DNA from: Rhodamnia argentea
Taxonomy: Eukaryota; Streptophyta; Magnoliopsida; Myrtales; Myrtaceae
Reading direction: 5' to 3'
Assembly: GCF_020921035.1 (NCBI RefSeq)
Contig: NC_063156.1
Location: forward strand, 28,196,283-28,260,282
Length of the DNA stretch: 64,000 nucleotides
Shown piece after piece: positions 12,075 to 30,399 of the stretch. The translations under genes and the position numbers were made by a program. How positions within the stretch are numbered: position 1 is the stretch's first letter; each line of letters opens with the position of its first letter. Below the pieces are notes generated by a model that searched no databases, was not told the origin of the DNA, and saw only the letters and a list, made by a program, of their open reading frames with translations.

Positions 12075-13337
12075 TCAGAGCCAGTCCTGCTGCTGAAGCT
12101 TGAGGGGCAAATATACCTCGGAAAGATACTGAAACCCGAAAGTGCTCAGAGCCTGAATCTCTGCCTTCTGCTTCGTCTTCACCATCAAGCTCAGCTCCTC
12201 GACCCACCCCGGGTTCTTCTTCACGAAATCCTCCTCCAACAAGTCCTTCCCCGTCTTTATATCCTGCTCCGTCATGGGCAACCTACACTGCTCCGGTATC
12301 TTATACTTATCCAGGTCGCTCGGCCTTATACCCAACCATTTGATGTCAGGGGTCGTCAGGTTGGCACTGTCGTACGACATGTTCTTCGACCCGCACCCAT
12401 AAACCGACAAGATCTTCAATCCATAAGGGTCGCTGTCCACAAGGGCGAGCACAGGCAGCTTCAGCTCCATCTTCATCTTCCTCAAGAAGAGCCTCGTGGC
12501 CACGTCCGGTTGGCCCTTAGCCGTGACAATGATGCACGGAAACCTGTTGTAGAACCGATCCTCTGCCAATCGGATGTAGGCAGCGTCCTTCTCCACCAAG
12601 AGTATGAACAAAGCATCGCTCTGCATATCGCCAACCCGATCAATGTTCGGTGGTATTGCCTTCCCTCCCATCCCCATCTTCGTGCAATCGATCATGTCGC
12701 CGTTGTCGCTGAAAATGAGCCGGCCCACAACGACTCCCTTCTCGGCAGCAATCACATTGAGGCTCGACCGAGTGCACCCCAGCATACAGGACACGTCGTC
12801 GAGGACCGAATCGGACTGTGATTGGTCCTGGAAGAGCTTGACGTCGGTGTAGAAGAGGTCACGCTTGGTGACGTGGATGCTCTTGGCGCAGAGCTGGTGA
12901 ATGAGCTGGAGGATGCGGGTGGTGATGGTGGACTTGCGGACGCTGGAGACGTTAGCGAAGGGGCGGAGGGTGTTCTTGTCCTTGAGCACGATGCGGTCGA
13001 GCTCGGGGACGTAGAGCTGGTTCGCCGAGGAGCGGGAGGGGACGTCGAAGGCGAAGCCATCGCCGCCGAGGATGGAGCGGGCGATGCGGAGGATGAGGGA
13101 CTCGATGGAGGACTGCACGGAGGAGAGGGAGAGGTCGGCGACCTCGCGGCAGGTGGAGGAGAGGGCGAGGTCGGCGAGGGTTAGGGTTTTGGCGCCGGAG
13201 GAGGAGGAGGCGGTGGCGGCGGAGCCAGTGAGGGAACGGAGTGTCTGGAGGATGACGGAGTCGGGCTTGAGGCGGTTCTTGAAGGGGAGATCGTCGTCAT
13301 CGGCGTCGGCGCGGCGGCGTTTCTTCTTCTCGGCCAT
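12075..13337 (-). CDS. SPO11-3: DNA topoisomerase VI subunit A (SPO11-3/RHL2/BIN5)
   Basis: A single uninterrupted frame of 420 aa, close to the roughly 427 aa of the Arabidopsis protein. It starts with a basic patch ([10 protein letters not shown]). A winged-helix 5Y-CAP domain carries the catalytic tyrosine in KRDLFYTD (Tyr163), which makes the covalent 5'-phosphotyrosyl bond. The Toprim domain follows, with the metal-binding acidic residues in LLVEKDAA (Glu249) and [10 protein letters not shown] (Asp301, Asp303). With a B subunit it forms plant topoisomerase VI, a type IIB enzyme in the nucleus that decatenates chromosomes during endoreduplication. It is distinct from the meiotic SPO11-1 and SPO11-2, which lack this exact C-terminal sequence. 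All key residues are present, so it should be functional. The start is the first ATG, with a purine-rich codon run directly after it. Confidence 0.96.
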
Positions 13338-13644
13338 TTAGGAGGGCGGGGGAGGAGTGGAGGGAAAATGAGTGGGAGTTCACAGCTGGGAGAGGATCTC
13401 TGCAGTTAGTCCTCCAACTTTGGTGTAACGTATAATGAGATTCTTAAATTTTTAGCTTGTTCGATCTTATATCTAAATTTTAGTTTGACATTCAAAGTGT
13501 TTCTCAAATTTTTAATTTATTTAATTTTTTTTAAAATTTTGATATATATTCAATATACTCTTTGAATTATATTCAATGTAGTCTTTCGATTAAATTAAGA
13601 TTCAATATTGAATAGTTCCGTTTGATTTACATATTAAATTAAAT
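13338..13644. other. SPO11-3 upstream region with inverted-repeat-like AT-rich sequence
   Basis: The first 80 bases are the likely 5' leader of SPO11-3. From about 13410 the sequence shows the alternating AT-rich words of the small inverted-repeat elements. No gene is visible. Confidence 0.4.
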
Positions 13645-13784
13645 ATATATCAAAAGTTTAATGATTATATTAAACAAATCAGAAGTTGATAGATCATTTG
13701 CGTTAAAGTTCAGTTATCACATTAAATAAATTGATAATCAAATATTTTAAAATAAAATTCATAGATTATTTGTTTAATTTTTCC

Positions 13785-13874
13785 ATGGCTAAACACCTTA
13801 CGAAAATCCAGCAAGAAAACGAAAGACCCACAGGGCTCAAAACATTTAAGGCCCAAATCAAAAAGCATGCCTAA
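13785..13874 (+). other. Micro-ORF 1 of the tandem array (29 codons)
   Basis: Open frame beginning MAKHLTKIQQENER and ending KKHA. The same frame is open in the other four units. No known protein matches from memory. Part of it overlaps the site II-like promoter words, so it may be coincidental. Confidence 0.35.
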
Positions 13875-14132
13875 ATAGGCGCAATCACATCTAAACTAGG
13901 GCTGGGATTTGTTCTTATAGCTGTCGCACCGTCTTCATTTTCTCAAACTTCCTCCAAAGTCGCACACCGCCTAGTCAGTCACCATGCAATACTAAAGTTT
14001 AGGGATTATATTAAACAGATCAGAAGTTGATAAATCATTTGCATTATAGTTCATATATCACATTAAATAAATTAATAATTAATCGTATTATATTTTAGAC
14101 CAAAATTCAAAGAATATTTGTTCGATTTTTCC

Positions 14133-14222
14133 ATGGCTAGACCTCGTGCAAAAATTCAGCAAGCAAATGAAAGCCCCATTGAGTTCAAAGCATTCAAGGC
14201 TCAAATTAGAAAGCATGCCTAA
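14133..14222 (+). other. Micro-ORF 2 of the tandem array (29 codons)
   Basis: Begins MARPRAKIQQANESPI and ends RKHA. It has the same length and stop position as units 1 and 5, with several missense but no length-changing differences. Confidence 0.35.
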
Positions 14223-14478
14223 ACTGGCACATTCACTTCTAAACTAGGGCTGGGGTTTGTTCTTGCAGTTTTCGCACCGTCTTCAACCTCTCGAACTTCC
14301 TTGAGTAGCTCGCCGCGTCCGCTCAGTCACCATGGGATACTAAAATTTATGGATTATATTAAACAAATCAGAAGGTTGAGGAATTATCCGTGCTAAAGTT
14401 CAAATATCATGAATAAATTAATAATTAATCATATTATAGTTTAGGCCAAAATTGAGATATTATTTGTGTGATTTTTCC

Positions 14479-14562
14479 ATGGCTAAACCTCTTGCAAAAA
14501 TCAAGCAAGCAAACAAAAGCCGCATTGGACTGAAAACATTCAAGGCCCAAATAAGAAAATAG
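14479..14562 (+). other. Micro-ORF 3 of the tandem array (27 codons)
   Basis: Begins MAKPLAKIKQANKSRI and stops two codons early relative to units 1, 2 and 5. Confidence 0.35.
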
Positions 14563-14827
14563 GCCTAAACAAGCGCAACCACATCTGAACTATGGTTGAG
14601 GTTTGTTCTTGCAGCTAGCACACTGTCCTCAACCTCTAGAACTTCCTCCAGAGCCACACAGTGCCTACTCAGTCTCCATGCTTGCTCAGTCACCGTGGGT
14701 ATCAAATTTTGGGGATTATATTAAACAAATCATTTGCGTTAAAATTCAAAAATCACATTAAATAAATTAATAATTAATCGTATTATATTTTAGGCCAAAA
14801 TCCAGAGATTATTTGTTTGATTTTTCC

Positions 14828-14974
14828 ATGGCTAAGCCCCTTGCAAAAATCCAGCAAGCAAATGAAAGCCTCATTGGGCTCAAAACATTCAAGGCCCAAA
14901 TCAGAAACCTTCTTCGATCTTTCGAACTTCCTCCGGAACCGCACAGAGCCTGTTCGGTCACCGTAGGGTACTAA
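14828..14974 (+). other. Micro-ORF 4 of the tandem array (48 codons)
   Basis: Begins MAKPLAKIQQANESLI. A deletion of about 60 bp in this unit fuses it in frame to the leader-derived part, giving a longer frame that ends SVTVGY. Confidence 0.35.
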
Positions 14975-15111
14975 AGTTCGGGGATTATATTAATCAAATC
15001 AGAAGTCGAGAGATAATTTGTGCTAAAGTTCAGATATCACGTTAAATAAATTAATAATTAACCATATTATAATTTAAGCCAAAATTAACAGATCATTTGT
15101 TTGATTTTTTC

Positions 15112-15201
15112 ATGGCTAAACCCCCTGATAAAATCCAGCAAGCAAACGAAAGCCCCATTGGGCAAAAAACATTCAAGGCCCAAATCAGAAAGCGGGCCTG
15201 A
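15112..15201 (+). other. Micro-ORF 5 of the tandem array (29 codons)
   Basis: Begins MAKPPDKIQQANESPI and ends RKRA. After it the array ends and CDC123-like 5' sequence begins. Confidence 0.35.
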
Positions 15202-15210
15202 AGGTTTTGC

Positions 15211-15455
15211 ATAATTGATGCATAGAGGTTCTTGGAGCTAAAACATCTCAAGACTTTGTTTCTTTAGGAGTCTCTGTTTGGTCTAGGAAATGTTTAACTG
15301 ACCGTTGACAATGTCTTTCTTTCTGCGATCAATCTTGTTGACTTCTTTTCGTACTTCATACCATATTTTTGCTTGCTGGTGGTAATCAATGCTAGTGCGT
15401 TTTCTTCAGCTCTCTGCAGGTATCTACTTTAGAAATCAGTGAACTGGCTTAGTGC
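15211..15455 (+). repeat. Truncated copy of the sequence preceding the CDC123 coding exon
   Basis: ACTTTGTTTCTTTAGGAGT, AATGTCTTTCTTTCTGC, GGTAATCAATGC, CTCTGCAGGTAT and AGAAATCAGTGAACTGGC follow in the same order as at 17218-17405 upstream of CDC123. The copy stops before the coding exon. Confidence 0.8.
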
Positions 15456-15468
15456 TTGTTCCTTTTTC

Positions 15469-15643
15469 AAAAATATTTTCCTAAAAATAATTTTTTGTAT
15501 CGCTCAAAATATTTAGTTAATTGAAAATTATATTCATTCTCGATAATAATTTATGTTTGAATAACTTCGTGGACAATGGAAATATTTTTTGTTTATTTGT
15601 TTTAATAAGCAATATAAGCGATCCTTTTTAGGAAAATATTTTT
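15469..15643. mobile_element. Foldback element, family B
   Basis: The left arm AAAAATATTTTCCTAAAAAT and the right arm GGAAAATATTTTT with AGCGATCCTTTTTA are inverted repeats about an AT-rich core. It interrupts the CDC123-like 5' copy. Confidence 0.5.
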
Positions 15644-15760
15644 CATATCCCGCATTTTCTGGCGGTTAGTACTTTCACCTTCTTGCTTGCCCATGAAGCA
15701 CCAATTAATATACACCTTGCCACCTTTTAAGATTTTAACCACAAAAAAAACAGATCTATG

Positions 15761-15970
15761 GATTCGTTTGTTTTGCAAAAAATGAATGATTTGATTTGTA
15801 TTTCCTAAAAATAATCTCTTATATCGGTTACAAAAAAAAACAAATTAAAAGTATTTTTATCGCCTCCAAAAGTATTCGAACATAAATTATCGTTGATTAT
15901 GAAAATATTTATTATTGACTAACTATTTTAATCGATACATGCGATCATTTTTAGAAAAATGACTTTTAAA
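15761..15970. mobile_element. Foldback element, family B
   Basis: It begins GATTCGTTTGTTTTGC, with an internal TTTCCTAAAAATAATC and a matching inverted GCGATCATTTTTAGAAAAAT at the right end. It is similar to 15469-15643. Confidence 0.5.
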
Positions 15971-16139
15971 CCATTGCCCCAATAACCACTTTTCCCATTT
16001 GAAAAGAGGGAGGTAGGGGGTTCGAATCTCCACCTTCAGGGGGAGTGTGGTGGGGACGCATGAGGAGGGAGCAGGGTTTTCGTAATCTACACACGGCGTA
16101 TAGCGCACGCAATGCGGCTCGTATAATAGAATAAGATAG
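15971..16139. other. Spacer upstream of the CDC123 leader
   Basis: Contains GGTTCGAATCTCC, reminiscent of a tRNA-derived B box, but no tRNA fold or SINE ends could be shown. Confidence 0.3.
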
Positions 16140-17427
16140 GGACCAAAGCTCGAGCGAGAGGAACGGTCCGCCCATGGTAACTGGAGGCTCCCCTCTCATG
16201 CGATTAGTATTGGCCTTATTAAGGCGGTGCGTGGGCTTCATGAAGAGCCCAAATCCGAACCACCGAAGCCCAAAACATCCAAGGCCCAATTCGGAAAGAG
16301 GCCTAAACAAGCATGATCACCACACACCCACAGAGTTGTTTATGCCATCGTGATGAGCGTGTGGTAGGGGCTAGGGCTTCTTGTAGCTGCTGCCACTCCG
16401 TCTGCAACCTCTCGAGCTTCCGCCAGAGCCGCGCAACGCCTACTCGGTCCCCACGGGGTACTATACTGCGACTCTACTTCCTCTCGTCTTTGAAATTGTT
16501 CTAGTTTTCGATTGTCGAACGTGTGTTTCGGGTTCCTGGGGTTTGCGTTCTCGTTTCAGATTGAGAGCTGGATATGTGTTGATGTCGTCTTTAGAGGAGG
16601 AGAAGATTCGAGGTTGCTTTGAGGTTGCGTTGTCCTTAAGCAGACGGTGAAATGGAGGCACTGCTGCTTTTTTTGTTTGTCGTTCTTTTTTCTTCTCTTT
16701 GAGCGAAGAAAAAGCAACAGTATGCGATAACCGAAGTCGAGTCCTCCATCTGATTTTGGCCTGCGTCAATAATCTGGGCAGATTACGATATTAATGTCGA
16801 ATTTGAAATTTACATCTTTGTAATTGAGTTTTTCTCAGTATCACAATGGCTAAATAACTACGAGCGGCTCCATAATGTCGGAAAGTTGGGTCCTTTTTTT
16901 TTTTTTTTGTGTTCTTCAGCATTTTTCGGCTCTGCTAATCTTGATCGTATACTGATGCAAACTTATTTTTCGGGTGCTTTTACTTCTGTTGCACTGTCGT
17001 GGTTTTCAGAGTTTTGTCTCATGAAATTCTTGTGACGATGCGCTTAGGGTTGTGGGGTAAAAATTTGCACTTTTAATCTGTAAAGCCACATGATATTACC
17101 TCTACTGCTTTGGAACGCTATGCCACATTTGTATTTTCTGTACATTCTTTTACGCCCTCCAATAGCAATGCTAAGCAGGTTTTAAGCCGGAATACAATAG
17201 TTAGAGTTTGTTAATGACTTTGTTTCTTTAGGAGTAGGAGATGTTTGACTAACAATGTCTTTCTTTCTGCCATCAATCTGCTTGATTTTTTATTTTTATT
17301 TTTGGTATTTCACACCTAATTTGTGCATGCTGGTAGTAATCAATGCGATTGCATAATCTTCAGGCTCTTGCAGGTATATGCTTCAGAAATCAGTGAATTG
17401 GCCTAGTACTTGTTTCGTTTTCTCCAG
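16140..17427 (+). promoter_or_regulatory. RPS23-derived promoter, leader exon and leader intron in front of CDC123
   Basis: From AAAGCTCGAGCGAGAGG (16144) to about 17215 this is homologous to 21648-22700, the promoter, first exon and intron 1 of RPS23. Site II-like GCCCA words sit at about 16250-16290. The leader ends at 16457 with the same GT donor (GGGGTACTATACTGCG), but the RPS23 start ATG reads ACG here. The probable acceptor is TTTTCTCCAG at 17418-17427, giving a non-coding exon joined to the CDC123 coding exon. Splicing is predicted, not proven. The TATATATA box of RPS23 is not present in this copy. Confidence 0.75.
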
Positions 17428-17462
17428 CCTTTGGAACGAGCTTTTTTGAAAGTTACAAAGCA

Positions 17463-18464
17463 ATGAGGCAAGAAGAAGTGGATCGATGCCAGATTCAAGA
17501 GTGGTATCCTAAATTCAAGTTGGTGTCCATCAAAACGCATGTTCATCGGCTTCCGGAGTCCTTCGTTGAGTACCTTCTTGGTGACACTGGACCATTTGTT
17601 CTACCAAATTCTGTCACAGGTGAAGATGCCCTTCCCAACAGGGTCTGTAATCTTGTGGACGAAGATTATCTTGCAGTTTCAGAAGAATCTGGAGATGAAT
17701 CCGAGGAATTCCCACCTCCTTCTTTTCCAGAACTCGAGTTGGAGGTCAAAGAGTCAATTGAATCGCTCGGGGGTGCCATTTTCCCTAAGCTGAACTGGAG
17801 CTCGCCAAAAGATGCTGCTTGGATTAGTGGTAGTGGGAATCTTCGGTGCACGTCGCTTAGTGAGATCGCGCTCCTGCTACGCGCATCCGATTCATCGACC
17901 CACGATCTCTGTCATGCGTATGATTCTTGCAGCAACAAGTCCTTGTCGAGGCCACAGAGCTTTTTCCTTGCTCTACGGAAGTGGCAGCCGGCGCTTCGAC
18001 CAGAGATGGAATTCCGTTGTTTTGTAAGGAACAAGCTTCTGGTTGGCATTTGCCAACGTGAGGTTACCACATTTTACCCGGTCCTCCTCGAGAAGAAGGA
18101 GCACCTTAAGGTTTTGATCGAGGATTTCTTTGAAAGTGAAGTGCGTCCGAACTTTGAATCGGATAACTACGCGTTTGATGTTTATGTCACCAAGGATGGG
18201 AGGGTTAAGGTACTGGATTTCAACCCTTGGGGGGTGTTTACGCTGCCACTCCTCTTTTCATGGGACGAACTGAGCGAAAGGGACGATGAAGAGGTGGATT
18301 TCAGAATTGTAGAGAGTCGGTGCGCGGTCCGACCAGGTTTGAAAACGGCTGTGCCGTACGATTACTTAGATACAAGTCCTGGGAGCGGTTGGGACCAGTT
18401 CCTGAGAAATGCTGATGAGGAGATAAGGAAACAAGCTAAGGAGTCTCCAGAAGCGGGCGCTTAG
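17463..18464 (+). CDS. CDC123: CDC123 (D123 family) eIF2 assembly chaperone
   Basis: A single-exon frame of 333 aa that covers the D123 domain from end to end. Its motifs are CQIQEWYPKF near the N-terminus, KLNWSSPKDAAW (residues 109-120), HDLCHAYDSC (147-156), LRPEMEFRCFV (178-188), GICQREVTTFY (195-205) and the ATP-grasp metal site VLDFNPWG (Asp252, Asn254). The family binds eIF2 gamma in the cytosol and promotes joining of the eIF2 subunits in an ATP-grasp-dependent way, so it controls translation start. The Arabidopsis counterpart is EDA35. The start ATG follows AAAGCA and matches family length. Its leader region is copied from RPS23, so it may be driven like a ribosomal-protein gene. The lack of coding introns could mean a retrocopy, but this needs comparison with other plants. 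Confidence 0.95.
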   Translation: MRQEEVDRCQIQEWYPKFKLVSIKTHVHRLPESFVEYLLGDTGPFVLPNSVTGEDALPNRVCNLVDEDYLAVSEESGDESEEFPPPSFPELELEVKESIESLGGAIFPKLNWSSPKDAAWISGSGNLRCTSLSEIALLLRASDSSTHDLCHAYDSCSNKSLSRPQSFFLALRKWQPALRPEMEFRCFVRNKLLVGICQREVTTFYPVLLEKKEHLKVLIEDFFESEVRPNFESDNYAFDVYVTKDGRVKVLDFNPWGVFTLPLLFSWDELSERDDEEVDFRIVESRCAVRPGLKTAVPYDYLDTSPGSGWDQFLRNADEEIRKQAKESPEAGA

Positions 18465-19439
18465 CGATCGAATTTCGATCAGTTTGAATGCACAGACGAT
18501 AACCCTATTGCTCCTTCCTAGGCATGTTTTCTGTGATTCCCTGAGGTTTGAAGTCGTTCCTTTTCGTGTTCTTGTTCTGATATTGTAAATTCTTCTCTGT
18601 TGCTTCCTCCTCGGAAAGGACATGTGGTCCGTGGAGTCCTAATCAGGGGAACACATCGTCGAATGCACCCGAGTAGGTGTGTCGACATGAACTCGCAAGC
18701 CTAGTCATGCAGAAGCCGAAGGAAAATGATTTTGACTATGTTTTAATTTTTAAATGATTGTTTGTATTGTTTAGAAAAATTAATTAGGAGAAAATGCTTT
18801 CCATCGTTAACATTTATTTCTTATAGACATTTTCGTTGATGACTTGGTTAATGAGCTTCTGTGAGCAATCGAGCTGAATAGATTTCAGATTGGTGGCTTT
18901 CCGCAAATTTAATACATCCTTATTTTTAAGTGCACTCTTTATGCATAGGGTGCAAATGGACAAGTACGTCCATCGGTTTTAAATTCGGATGAGGCGTTGT
19001 TGCTAGCATTATTGGTTTAGCACACGGTGGAATCCACGTGTATGAATCGGTTCTGCCACGTCAGTTCAGTATAAATCGGTCGTGCCACGTCAGCTCAATC
19101 CCTTAAAGCCATAATCATCCTAATCAAATCTATTAAAAAAGCGACACATTCAAGGCGACGTAGTTTGAATCGCTGAACATTTTTCTACTTAAAGCCAATT
19201 CGAAAGTGTTGTACCAAGGCTCTCTAATGGACAGGAAAACCAGAACATCCGAGACAAATTATTGATGCAAGTCGATGGAACGACTACTGGTCATGTGATG
19301 CAAGTCGTCGTATAAAATGGCTTTTTTCTTACGGTGACCAAAGTTCGACCCCGTCTTATGGATTACAGTTCCGTATATCCAATGCGAGATTCCTTACGGC
19401 ATATTCGTAACCTCGTATATCAATTAAAGCTCCGTTTAA
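18465..19439. other. CDC123 3' flank
   Basis: Holds the 3' UTR. The part 18630-18860 (ACATCGTCGAATGCACC, TGTCGACATGAACTC, AGAAGCCGAAGGAAAAT) is repeated at 20025-20240. No other gene is seen. Confidence 0.5.
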
Positions 19440-20240
19440 ATGAGCTTGTCTTGTTATGACAATGGCTAAATAACTATGAGCAGCTAGTAATTTTCGAAAA
19501 TTGGGTCTCTTCTTTCGGTTCTTCAGCATCATTTGTCGACTATGATAGTCCTCTTAAGTACGTTGTAAAAAGCTCTTGCTTGATTGTATACTGATGCGAA
19601 CTTATTTTTCGGGGGTGTATCTTTACCTCTGCCGTGTGCTGTCGTGGTTTTCAGAGTTTTATCTTCTGAAATTCTTGTGCCGATGCGCTTAGGGTTTTGA
19701 GGTATAAATACGCACTTTTAACCAGCAAAGCCATACGAGATTACCTAGGCTGGTTTGGGACGCTACGTCATGAATCTTCTGTACATTCTTTTGCGCTCTC
19801 CGATAGCAATGCTAAGCAAGTTTTAAGCTGGAAACACAATAATTAGAGTTTGTTAATGGCTTTCTGTTTGGCGAAGTGGTAGCCTCCGTCGGCTTCAAAG
19901 AGTAGCAGTCATTGACAGTGGGTAGAGGAGATGAAAGTAATTAGTACAAAATATGGTCGACATAGCGTGATCGGATGTGTCTTCCTCGACTGATGCAATA
20001 GTAGCAGGTTCTCTGTCCTAGAAAAGCGTGAACCACATCGTCGAATGTACCGAGTAGCTGTGTCGACATGAACTCTGAAAGCCCAGTAATCCAGAAGTCG
20101 AAGGAAAATCGAGATTAATTCATTAATTTATTAGTTAGAAAATTGTTCGTTGTTAACATTAATTTGTTAGACATTTTCGTTACGAATTTGTTAATGGAAT
20201 TTTGTAAGCAATCGAGATGAAAGCACTTCGATAGGTGGTT
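19440..20240 (+). repeat. Rearranged copy: RPS23-type leader intron joined to CDC123-type 3' flank
   Basis: 19447-19985 matches the leader introns at 16850-17220 and 22265-22800 (ACAATGGCTAAATAACTA, TTCTTCAGCATC, CTGATGCGAACTTATTTTTC, TCTTCTGTACATTCTTTT, AGCAATGCTAAGCA). Then 20025-20240 matches the CDC123 3' flank at 18640-18860. No CDC123 coding sequence lies between them, so this is the remnant of another copy that lost its coding part. Confidence 0.8.
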
Positions 20241-20423
20241 ATTGGCGAAACAAAGGCTTTTCTTATGTTCTAGTTCAATCTTTATCCTTATTTATAGTTC
20301 ACTCTTTATTTGCCACGTCAGCTCAGTTCCTTAAAACCAATTCACATGGATGAATTAGGGCTTGCTAGGGCATCCGAGACAAATTATTGATGCACGTCGA
20401 TGGAGCGACAGATCGGTTATTAC

Positions 20424-21149
20424 GGCTCCGTTTATTTCACGGAAAATAATTTTTCAAATTTTGTGTCGTTTGGTTCTTGGAAGATAAGTTAGTCCATGAA
20501 ATCATTGTTCTCCCATTAAAAAAACTCTTTCGAAAATGGGAAAAATGTTTTGTCGCTTTTTGAGAAGTGAAAAATATTTTCCTCGTTCTTCTTTCCACCT
20601 CTCCTTCAAATCTTTTTTCTTTTTAATTATCTTTTCAACTTTCTTTTCGTTTTTATTTATTTTTTCAAAATTAAAAAAATTACTTTTTAATATTTCTCTT
20701 TTTCTTTTTCCTTCTTCTCCTTTGGCCGGTCGTCGGCCTTGCCAGATCTGGCGAGACTAGGCGAGTCATCGCCGGCTTGTGGTAAGGCTTGAGCTCGGCG
20801 GTCACCGTGGCGGGCGACCGACAAAAACAACAATAGAAAAAAGAAGAAAAACATAAAATGAAAAAAGAATAGAGAAAAAAGGAAAAAAAGATAAAGATAA
20901 ATAATTAAAACATTAAAAAATTGATTTTTTTAAATAAAAATAAAAATAAAAAACATAAAAAAAAAATGGCGAATGAAGTGCATGGAGAAAAATTAAATCT
21001 AATTTTTCATACCAAACAACAGAAAATATTTTTCGAGTATTTTTCATATTTAAGCCAAACACCGGAAAGATGCGGCCATTTTCTTGAAAATTGACTTCCC
21101 GGAAAATATTTTCCAAAAGCGACTTATTTTTTGCAAAATAAACGGTGCC
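20424..21149. mobile_element. MITE-like TIR element, 726 bp, with GC-rich core
   Basis: The left end is GGCTCCGTTTATTTC and the reverse complement of the right end is GGCACCGTTTATTTTGC. A further inverted GGAAAATATTTTCC-type sequence lies inside both ends. Both ends abut the trinucleotide TAC (20421-20423 and 21150-21152), a possible 3-bp target-site duplication as in PIF/Harbinger-type elements. The core at 20725-20820 is GC-rich (GGCCGGTCGTCGGCCTTGCC). It has no transposase. Confidence 0.7.
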
Positions 21150-21223
21150 TACGTATCATCACTTTTTCTGTGATTCAATTGCCACATAAAATGCTTTCTC
21201 CTTATGGTGATTAAAGTTATGAC

Positions 21224-21601
21224 TTGATGCATAATATAATCCCCGAACTTTTGACTTTTTCATTGTAATCCTTGAACTATATCCAAATGTGCAATGCCGT
21301 CCCCGAATTTTAATTTATTTATGGCTCCGTTCTGGCTTATGTTCAATTTAACCCTTAAATTATTTGAAAATATTCAATGTTGTCCTTAAACTTGAATTAA
21401 TATCGGGACAACATTGAACAATGTTGAACACGTGTCAAAAACGGAGCATAAGGACTAAATTGAACACGTGTCAAAAGTTCATGAAGTACATTGAACAAAT
21501 TTAAAGTTTCTGGATCACAACGAGCATATTAAAAATTCAAGAATCACATTCCATATTGGATTATAGTTCATGGACCATTTATATTATTTTTTCCAATATT
21601 T
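21224..21601. mobile_element. Small inverted-repeat element
   Basis: The left end ATAATATAATCCCCGAACTT and the reverse complement of the right end AATAATATAAATGGTCCATG form imperfect arms. Inside are paired runs such as CAATGTTGTCC and GGACAACATTG. It is non-coding and lies just before the RPS23 promoter block. Confidence 0.5.
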
Positions 21602-21647
21602 ATCCAATGCGAGATTTATTATGAAATCGTGCTATCAATAAAGATGC

Positions 21648-21868
21648 GAACCGAAGCTCGAGCGGGAAGAATGTCCGCCCTCGTAAGCAAGAGCCCACCA
21701 AATCCGAACCACTAAAGCCCAAAACATTCAAGGCCTAATGAGGAAAGAGGCTATATATACGGTCGTTGATGAGCCTGCGACAGGGGCTAGGGTTTCTTGT
21801 CGCTGGTGCTACTACGTCTTCAACCTCTCGAGCTTCCGCCAGAGCCGCGCAAAGCCTACTCGGTCACC
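21648..21868 (+). promoter_or_regulatory. RPS23 promoter and leader
   Basis: A TATA box (TATATATA, about 21751-21758) lies about 110 bp before the start codon. Site II-like GCCCA words are at about 21689 and 21717. A telo-box-like AGGGTTT (AAACCCT on the other strand, 21789-21795) is followed by a CT-rich leader. This combination is typical of plant ribosomal-protein genes. Confidence 0.7.
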
Positions 21869-23520
<1,652 letters not shown>

Positions 23521-24807
23521 GTTTGGATGATGGCTTTTGCCCGTGATGTCAGTTTATAAGCTTTTATCACATTTTTGGATGTTGAATTCTGATTTTGGCC
23601 CTTTCGAACAATCCGCTATGATTTGTCTAGCTTATTGTACTGGTTTCACTTCAAGTGACTTGAGTTGGAGGTCTCTGTCTCTATCAATTTATCGATTACT
23701 CACTTCTCTTTGGAATCATATGATTCTAGATCATCTTTAAGAATGTGTATTGCTTTCATAATCCGAAGTGCTCTCTATATAATAAGGGAAATCGCAACTC
23801 AGACAAATTTCAAAGTCCGAAATCACCAATTCCCAGCTCCCCCACCAGAGAAGAGTCGAATTTCTGCACGGATAAACTCTTCCAAATATTCCGACCATTT
23901 CCACTTTGCTTCTATCTTCAGAGAAAAGAAAAATTTCACATGAGTCCCCTCTTATCTCGGACGGGTTGAAAGGGCCGGCCAAACTCGACATTGGATGCTC
24001 TGCCCCACAACTGTACATATATCGCAAGCCCTACCTCATTTCTCAGCAAATCCACTGCACCAACTTTGTTGCCGGCTGCCATGGCCGCTCAATGCGAAAG
24101 ATGCGACATCTTCAATTACACTATACAGCGATTGTTGGTTTCATAATCGGTCCAATTGCTCCAATGCACGTACTTTGCTAGAAACACCTAGCTTGAATTG
24201 GATAAAATCCACAAACCTCATGTTCTTTTCCTTTTCTTTTGTTCTCGGATAAGGCCCCGAGTCATGTCGCCTTGTTTTTTATGCATATGAAAAATCCTAG
24301 CCTGGCATACAAGTTGCCTAGCATTGATACATATCAGTGGTCATTTAGATTGTAGTGACCTGCATTATTTCAGTAAAATTCTGATGCTAGATATGTATTC
24401 GATAGTTTACAGGAGAGCTGCAAAACCTCTGTTATGTACATCAAAGTTTAGATACAAGGTGTAAAGCTGAGAGGCATTCAAGATTATTCTGTATCATTGC
24501 ACGTTTCACCAACGATATGGTTCCTAGCTCTCTTTTTTTGTCCAAAGTGTAGAATCTGTCGGCGTTTCTACAGTAGACAGAAAGCTCCTAGTAATATAAG
24601 ATGACATTGGGTATATGCCAAATTTCCCTCTATGAGAGAATGCTTGTAAACGTCGGGAGATACTACCCGCATACTGCTGTTCGATTTCGAAGGCCGAGCA
24701 TCACTATTTCTGGAAGCTTGAAGCAGATTCGTATGGCTTAGATAGAGGAGGGTACATGCCTCAGGGTCAGAGAGACATCATTGAAAGCAAAAAATACGCC
24801 TCTCTGT
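23521..24807. other. 3' regions of RPS23 and AAED1 (convergent)
   Basis: Holds the RPS23 3' UTR and, on the other strand, that of the thioredoxin-like gene. Small open frames at 23737-24250 have no recognisable domain. Confidence 0.45.
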
Positions 24808-28859: not shown

Positions 28860-30399
28860 GGATGCTCTGTGGAAGTGAAAAAGCAGAAGCCGCCGGTGAA
28901 AGTATGACGACTGAAAAGGCCGTTGAGCCTCTTCCGACGGCGAGGAGCCAACGGGGGTAACTGTTTCTGTGAAACGCGGGCCTTCCACGTGTCCAGCGGC
29001 GAGCCTCGGGCCTCTTCCGCTTGGGTCAGCAACTGGTTTGTCCTATGTCCGCATCACGTGCAATTATGCCTATCCTATCTTTGTTTAACTGAAAGCGTTT
29101 TCCGGTGAAATAGTTTTCTGAAATTAGGTTCTTTTTGACTCGTCGAAAACGATTTAATCAATAAAAAATTCATGCATGAAATTAAATAAATAAGTTTAAA
29201 AAAAAAAGATAAAATTTGTTTTTGATATTGTAAATTTCGAATTTTTTTAATGTTTTTATTGACCAAGAAAATTATTCTAAAATCGGATGTTTTTATGTTT
29301 TTCTTCTCCCTCCTGTTGGTAACACAAGGTCGGGCCTTGCCATGTCCGGCGAGCTCGAGCTCACAAGATCTCGATAAGGCCAAGCTACTAACGAGAGCAT
29401 GGATAGATAAGGGATTCATTTGTTTCGAAAAAAATAAATAATTTAGATAATGTTTCAAAAAAGATTATTAATATTACTTGAAATAATTGATAATGTTGTC
29501 ATTATAATTGATAACAACTTATGCCCAAATCTAATGCCCAATTTTTTTTTTTTTTGGACGATTGAAAGAATTTTTTGTTGGTTTATTCCGGTAAGCGACA
29601 CAAGCGATAATTTTCAAGAATATATTATTCACATTATTTATTTTTCGCAAAACAAACGGGGCCTTAGATGCACTTGGATTTGACATTTGATTTTGAATTT
29701 TATCTATTGTTCCTAGTAGATGTAGCTTGGTATTTGTGAATCGTACTATACATGATCCGCACATGACACAAACACGAAAGGCATGAAAAGAGGTCAGGTA
29801 CCCTCGAAGCCAATAGAGAGAAGTGTCACTCGCTTGGAGCAAGGCTCGGGAGTACACGAACCAACCCTTCGAACTGCAAGAAACTCCCATGAGCGTGCTC
29901 GTCGTGCCTCCCAAAGAGTTCGTTTTCAACTCTTTGTCATCTTACAGACAAGCTATTTCTCGACTGCTGCTTGCCAGTGCCATCATTTTCGCTTTTCTCG
30001 ATTCTCTTCATTCTACTTATCGTCGTCTTTCACCTTCTTCATTGCATTGCTTATCCCCTCGACATCATCACGGCGGCGGAGGACATTATCAAATAATCGA
30101 ATCAGCTGAAAAGTTTATGATTACGTTATATTTATGATTGAATTTTAAGGTTTAAACCTATTATTACATTCCATACTTAAAAGAGGTTTCAGACATGGTA
30201 AGACGACACGATTTTTCTCATTTCTCGCGAAATTTGGAGGGGAGGGAGTGGGGGCCGCCCCAGAAGAGAACTCCAGAGTCCCAGACGCCATTACATTTTT
30301 ACTACTAGGGTTCTGCTTCCTGTTCCTGTTCCTCTTCCCAGAGTCACGCGTCCTGCCGCCTCCTCTGCATTCGCTCTCCTCTCTCTAATCCCTCCTCCA
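28860..30399. other. Divergent intergenic region between AAED1 and adenylate kinase
   Basis: Both promoters must lie here. A possible short inverted-repeat element lies at about 29408-29665 (left TAAGGGATTCATTTGTTTCG, right TTTTCGCAAAACAAACGGGG). Open frames at 29531-30137 on either strand have no recognised domain. Confidence 0.45.
29408..29665. mobile_element. Short MITE-like element
   Basis: The left end TAAGGGATTCATTTGTTTCG and the reverse complement of the right end TAAGGCCCCGTTTGTTTTGC are imperfect inverted repeats that continue with AAAAATAAATAAT. The right end resembles that of 20424-21149, so the two may be related. Confidence 0.5.

Follow-up and report, generated by a model that had tools for sequence, protein, structure and literature searches.

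A CDC123 gene in Rhodamnia argentea lies behind a copy of the RPS23 promoter, first exon and partial first intron

In Rhodamnia argentea, the gene for CDC123, a factor that assembles eIF2, carries a front that derives from another gene. Ahead of its coding sequence, at about 16110–17216 of the window (the whole 64,000-nucleotide stretch of DNA that we analyzed), the promoter and exon 1 of RPS23 are repeated, together with 759 bases from the start of RPS23 intron 1. The CDC123 chimera is real as DNA: the chimeric gene claimed in a preliminary description of the window holds anatomically, with an RPS23-derived 5′ part, a sharp joint at 17216/17217, and a donor and acceptor that are plausibly placed. 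On balance, we think it probable that a DNA-level tandem duplication of the CDC123–RPS23 neighborhood, with breakpoints in introns, gave rise to a chimeric CDC123 that has an RPS23-type promoter and a 16457–17428 splice. The homologies, both joints described below, the motif content, the splice-site sequences and the ATG-free leader are features of the DNA itself; within the duplication model, we infer the ancestral gene order, the order of events, the loss of the parental gene, and the usage of promoter and splice sites.

The CDC123 coding sequence (17463–18464, plus strand) occupies one exon and encodes 333 amino acids plus stop. Its assignment to the D123 family is clear (Pfam D123, E 1.4e-91, 307.2 bits versus a cut-off of 24, profile positions 1–299 of 300), and the Met of human CDC123 in PDB 8phd aligns with its residue 1 (E 1.2e-59). 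RPS23, on the same strand, is intact, with 142 amino acids in four coding exons (21869–21873, 22910–23065, 23156–23282 and 23380–23520). The first of these consists of ATGGG only, after which the intron begins (ATGGG/GTACTATAC, the slash marking the splice site), a structure also known from the RPS23 genes of other plants. Using tblastn, we found no further coding copy of CDC123 or RPS23 in the window (next best E 4.6 and 0.53); in the CDC123 search, the gene itself was the sole match better than E 4. No CDC123 relatives were confirmed in viral_contigs, where one stretch matched the pattern. On the minus strand, Pfam identifies a topoisomerase VI subunit A/Spo11-like gene at 12075–13337, and a tandem array (13653–15202) lies between its start and CDC123.

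We label the copies A (the relic), B (the copy in front of CDC123), C (a third copy of the intron) and D (RPS23 itself). Between 16243–17216 and 21689–22699, B and D differ at 142 of 931 aligned sites (84.7% identical, K80 0.172 ± 0.015), and a wider alignment that includes the weaker upstream part has 182 differences over 1029 sites. The similarity fades upstream and can be traced to about 16110. The local alignment score of the block against RPS23 is 542, whereas none of 300 first-order Markov shuffles exceeds 24. RPS23 homology had previously been claimed for all of 16140–17427; this is correct up to 17216 but not for 17217–17427, which matches 15253–15468 instead. The earlier suggestion to align 16140–17427 with 21648–22800 does recover homology, but it left unlisted the other copies, namely relic A, 19408–20290 and the array at 13653–15202.

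At the joint, similarity switches from RPS23 to relic A within one base: the RPS23 alignment ends at 17216, and the relic A alignment starts at 17217. RPS23 reads GTTTGTTAATG/GCGCAG, the CDC123 front GTTTGTTAATG/ACTTTG and relic A CATCTCAAG/ACTTTG, such that RPS23 similarity extends through GTTTGTTAATG and relic similarity opens at GACTTTGTTTC. Given these sequences, the CDC123 front is a recombinant of RPS23 and relic A, with an overlap of about one base at most. The 211 bases of 17217–17427 do not resemble the remainder of RPS23 intron 1 (score 12, null maximum 24); with 15253–15468 they align at a score of 101 (null maximum 26). This latter stretch is relic A, on the plus strand, where the leader intron of the CDC123 side occurs again. 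It is 82.7% identical to 17217–17422 over 196 sites (K80 0.199) and ends 5 bases short of the acceptor AG; it therefore contains no exon. We favor relic A as the parent over its having been copied later from the chimera, because in that case the RPS23 part would need to have been lost exactly at the joint. The 49 bases that separate relic A from the last array unit (15203–15251) match neither the RPS23 intron (score 9, null maximum 17) nor, with any clarity, the array exon 1 (score 12, null maximum 13). On its other side, relic A adjoins a self-complementary fold-back element (15466–15970), which we label MITE-like. This element has relatives at 795–951 and 29382–29669.

The predicted leader intron of CDC123 (16458–17427, plus strand, 970 nt) would thus be chimeric, with 16458–17216 coming from RPS23 intron 1 and 17217–17427 from the CDC123 side. 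The intron had been proposed before, and its boundaries are in place: the donor is identical to the RPS23 donor, and the acceptor at 17427 is present. The CDC123-side stretch resembles the 3′ end of an intron, being 43% T and 22% A and ending in TTTCGTTTTCTCCAG; 61 of 1276 window positions have at least as strong a skew of T over A. By a simple score, the acceptor at 17427 ranks second of 52 AGs, and the true acceptor of RPS23 intron 1 comes seventh of 65. The donors fit four of nine consensus positions and rank 14th of 30 before CDC123 and 13th of 29 in RPS23. Judged on the true RPS23 intron-1 sites, such simple scores discriminate poorly. A small RNA within the intron, considered as a reason for the intron's upkeep, was rejected, as Rfam gave no match at gathering score over 13300–24000.

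Joining 16457 to 17428 would give CDC123 a leader composed of the RPS23 exon 1 copy (16380–16457, plus strand; 8 differences from RPS23 over 78 sites) as its predicted first exon, and 35 nt (17428–17462, plus strand) that contain no ATG. No ATG occurs in the 134 nt from 16360 through this splice to 17463. An ATG at 16353 enters the leader if transcription starts upstream of it, and the leader is ATG-free if transcription starts after 16355. If the intron were retained, the leader would hold 19 ATGs. As described previously, the RPS23 start ATG is replaced by ACG before CDC123 (16453–16455; ACGGG/GTACTATAC), with the donor unchanged. CACCATG still stands at the place of the start codon in RPS23 and in two of the four array units (u1 and u2); ACG is therefore derived. 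The accompanying claim that ACG stops initiation in the leader is borne out in that an 8-codon upstream ORF of the joined exons is removed; with the ATG kept, this leader ORF would end before the CDC123 start. The loss is weak evidence of selection: in the absence of constraint, it would be expected with a frequency of 22–43%, at assumed per-site changes of 0.08–0.17.

The RPS23 promoter copy (16110–16379, plus strand) has site II motifs at 16232, 16251, 16272 and 16288. In plant ribosomal-protein promoters, site II motifs (TGGGCY) recur redundantly ahead of the leader (PMC3022908), and the same holds for the CDC123 copy: with two or more as the threshold, 16119–16457 has four, a number attained in 3 of 500 shuffles (mean 0.67). 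The RPS23 promoter and leader (21625–21868, plus strand) contain two site II motifs, a telo box at 21795 on the minus strand and TATATATA at 21752. Plant ribosomal-protein genes typically combine a telo box with site II (PMC3022908); in this respect the CDC123 copy differs from them, since neither the telo box AAACCCTA nor a TATA has a match in 16119–16457. Because the copy is without the TATA and telo box that RPS23 keeps, CDC123 expression need not resemble that of RPS23. Judging from the sequence, use of this promoter by CDC123 is likely, and CDC123 and RPS23 may be switched on alike.

Beside TATATATA, at 21740–21760, RPS23 is missing about 34 bases that are present in the CDC123 copy and partly common to array unit u3. 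The CDC123 copy and u3 share GGCCTAAACAAGC, which is absent from RPS23, and so RPS23 seems to have undergone a deletion close to its present TATA. The copy in front of CDC123 may therefore predate the RPS23 TATA region.

It is possible, although rather unlikely in our view, that the RPS23 block is an inert passenger and that the CDC123 promoter lies inside 17217–17462 or further upstream. The stretch 17217–17462 has no site II, telo box or TATA match and looks like the 3′ end of an intron, which does not suit a promoter of its own, whereas the missing TATA and telo box of the RPS23-derived copy would suit an inert block. The array and copy C also point that way, being pieces of the RPS23 front that multiply and decay, mostly with no gene behind them. 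However, exon 1 together with the first 120 intron bases is closer to RPS23 than the remaining intron (19 of 198 versus 107 of 630 sites differ, Fisher p 0.012), which is not what an inert passenger would lead one to expect; exon 1 alone versus the intron, the second of two such tests, is not significant (p 0.25).

A second joint is found downstream of CDC123. Copy C (19408–19970, plus strand) matches RPS23 intron 1 at 22214–22799 with a score of 276 (null maximum 26), is missing the promoter and exon 1, and differs from RPS23 by K80 0.178 over 509 sites of 19440–19970. It is joined, at 19970/20015, to a duplicate (20015–20290, plus strand) of the CDC123 3′ flank (18636–18947, plus strand; score 101, null maximum 26), with 39 nt between them (about 19976–20014) that match neither side. 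Both joints pass from RPS23 intron 1 into the CDC123 neighborhood, so the second implies the same gene order as the first. Such joints would be expected if a unit of CDC123 followed by RPS23 had been tandemly duplicated twice.

Relic A and copy C fit as tandem flanks, in the same orientation and order, but the spacer is missing upstream of the CDC123 promoter copy. The spacer before RPS23 (20371–21624, plus strand) has pieces in common with 19246–19434; the match of the spacer end in copy C (score 18, null maximum 17) is marginally above chance. None of the spacer was detected upstream of the CDC123 copy's promoter, in 15970–16118 (score 7, null mean 6.4), and so a deletion or replacement between relic A and the promoter must be assumed. 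The fold-back element now occupies the stretch between the two. The spacer before RPS23 also holds two self-complementary insertions, within about 20430–21160 and 21220–21595, that are missing from the duplicated spacer ahead of copy C (19246–19434), a difference that speaks for the duplication model.

The distances suggest that the copies are similar in age: K80 is 0.172 for B–D, 0.178 for C–D and 0.199 for A–B, and for the CDC123 3′ flank it is 0.193 in the core and 0.306 over the whole flank. A three-way intron alignment gives 0.196 (B–D), 0.214 (C–D) and 0.237 (B–C), distances that favor no particular branching order. Plant neutral rates are commonly quoted as 2.5e-9 to 7e-9 per site per year, at which K80 values of 0.17–0.2 would correspond, very roughly, to 12–40 million years.

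Directly upstream of relic A, the proposed remnant of the parental CDC123, lies the older tandem array (13653–15202, plus strand, period 346–348 bp), in which each unit has a decayed RPS23-like promoter/exon-1 stretch. TRF reports it at 13653–14907 with 3.6 copies, BLAST carries it on to 15202, and the last unit (15133–15202) consists of promoter sequence only. Four units match the RPS23 promoter/exon 1 with scores of 37–51 (null maximum 18), and K80 between the units and either later copy is 0.46–0.56. It is tempting to speculate that CDC123 took RPS23-type fronts more than once, with the array as an earlier front and the present front as its replacement, repeatedly selected, but we regard this as unlikely. 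If it were true, ribosomal-protein control of this eIF2 assembly factor would have been maintained by selection time and again.

These diverged RPS23-like pieces near CDC123 are also what one might expect if the same front had stood before both genes since long before, conserved by gene conversion or constraint. An intron of such age should be saturated, yet K80 is only 0.178, and copy C and relic A are equally young; we consider an ancestral arrangement very unlikely.

We are still less inclined to accept the retrocopy suggested in the preliminary description, in which a reverse transcript of spliced CDC123 mRNA would have landed behind a copy of the RPS23 promoter. While the single coding exon would agree with it, CDC123 of Arabidopsis (EDA35, BICE1; AT4G05440) also assembles eIF2, belongs to the D123 family and has no intron in its coding region, lying in ‘intronless genomic regions’ (PMC10898606). 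The joint, for its part, falls in T-rich, intron-like DNA of which two copies exist, 211 bp ahead of the exon, and it is on these two grounds, non-exonic joint and intronless Arabidopsis coding region, that a retrocopy is disfavored. Moreover, duplication at the DNA level has taken in, together with RPS23 sequence, CDC123 3′ flank that lies outside the gene, and no trace of poly(A) remains (18464–19134 has no A-run of 6 or more). The window shows no parental copy with which to compare the exon structure. Homology by itself is directionless, but that RPS23 took over CDC123's own front is just as hard to credit, since RPS23 exon 1 holds its start codon and two of the four older units keep CACCATG there, and the ancestral front would be that of the gene starting there.

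Under the tandem duplication that we favor, the starting state would have been CDC123 followed by RPS23, head to tail, an order deduced from the window alone. The breaks would have fallen in two introns: in RPS23 intron 1, past the site corresponding to 22699, and in the CDC123 5′ leader intron, ahead of the site corresponding to 15253, that is, 17217. In the product, the CDC123 3′ intron and coding exon would follow the promoter, exon 1 and 5′ intron part of RPS23. A site-II-rich promoter of the ribosomal-protein type would drive the chimeric CDC123, its leader would be spliced from 16457 to 17428, and the first ATG, at 17463, would serve as its start codon. Of the parental CDC123, everything save the relic at 15253–15468 would have been lost afterwards, and loss of the RPS23 ATG would have removed the upstream ORF.

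Duplication of this kind is an ordinary mechanism, and both mechanism and outcome have precedent in Drosophila yakuba, where tandem duplication produced chimeric genes and recruited 5′ ends (PMC5460883). Those cases are young, polymorphic and accompanied by RNA-seq, whereas the CDC123 copy is old (K80 about 0.17) and known from DNA alone; in addition, the CDC123 coding sequence is unchanged, with the front alone exchanged. A duplicated front in a plant is known from PEP1 of Arabis alpina, which, like the CDC123 locus, has a tandem-duplicated proximal promoter, first exon and part of intron 1 (PMC3527215). At PEP1 both first exons serve one gene, whereas at the CDC123 locus the duplicated front would serve a different gene. 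Searches of open-licence PMC papers turned up no mention of an RPS23-front/CDC123 arrangement, and the open-licence PMC papers with both RPS23 and CDC123 are unrelated by title and the start of their abstracts.

The locus thus presents a well-marked exchange of promoter and leader via intron-to-intron breakpoints, in which the RPS23 parent is intact and the other parent a relic. Plant CDC123 has been linked to translation in immunity (PMC10898606), and so changed control of CDC123 could have consequences. If the gene is transcribed as predicted, a single duplication would have coupled the dose of an eIF2 assembly factor to that of ribosomal proteins, with neither protein changed.
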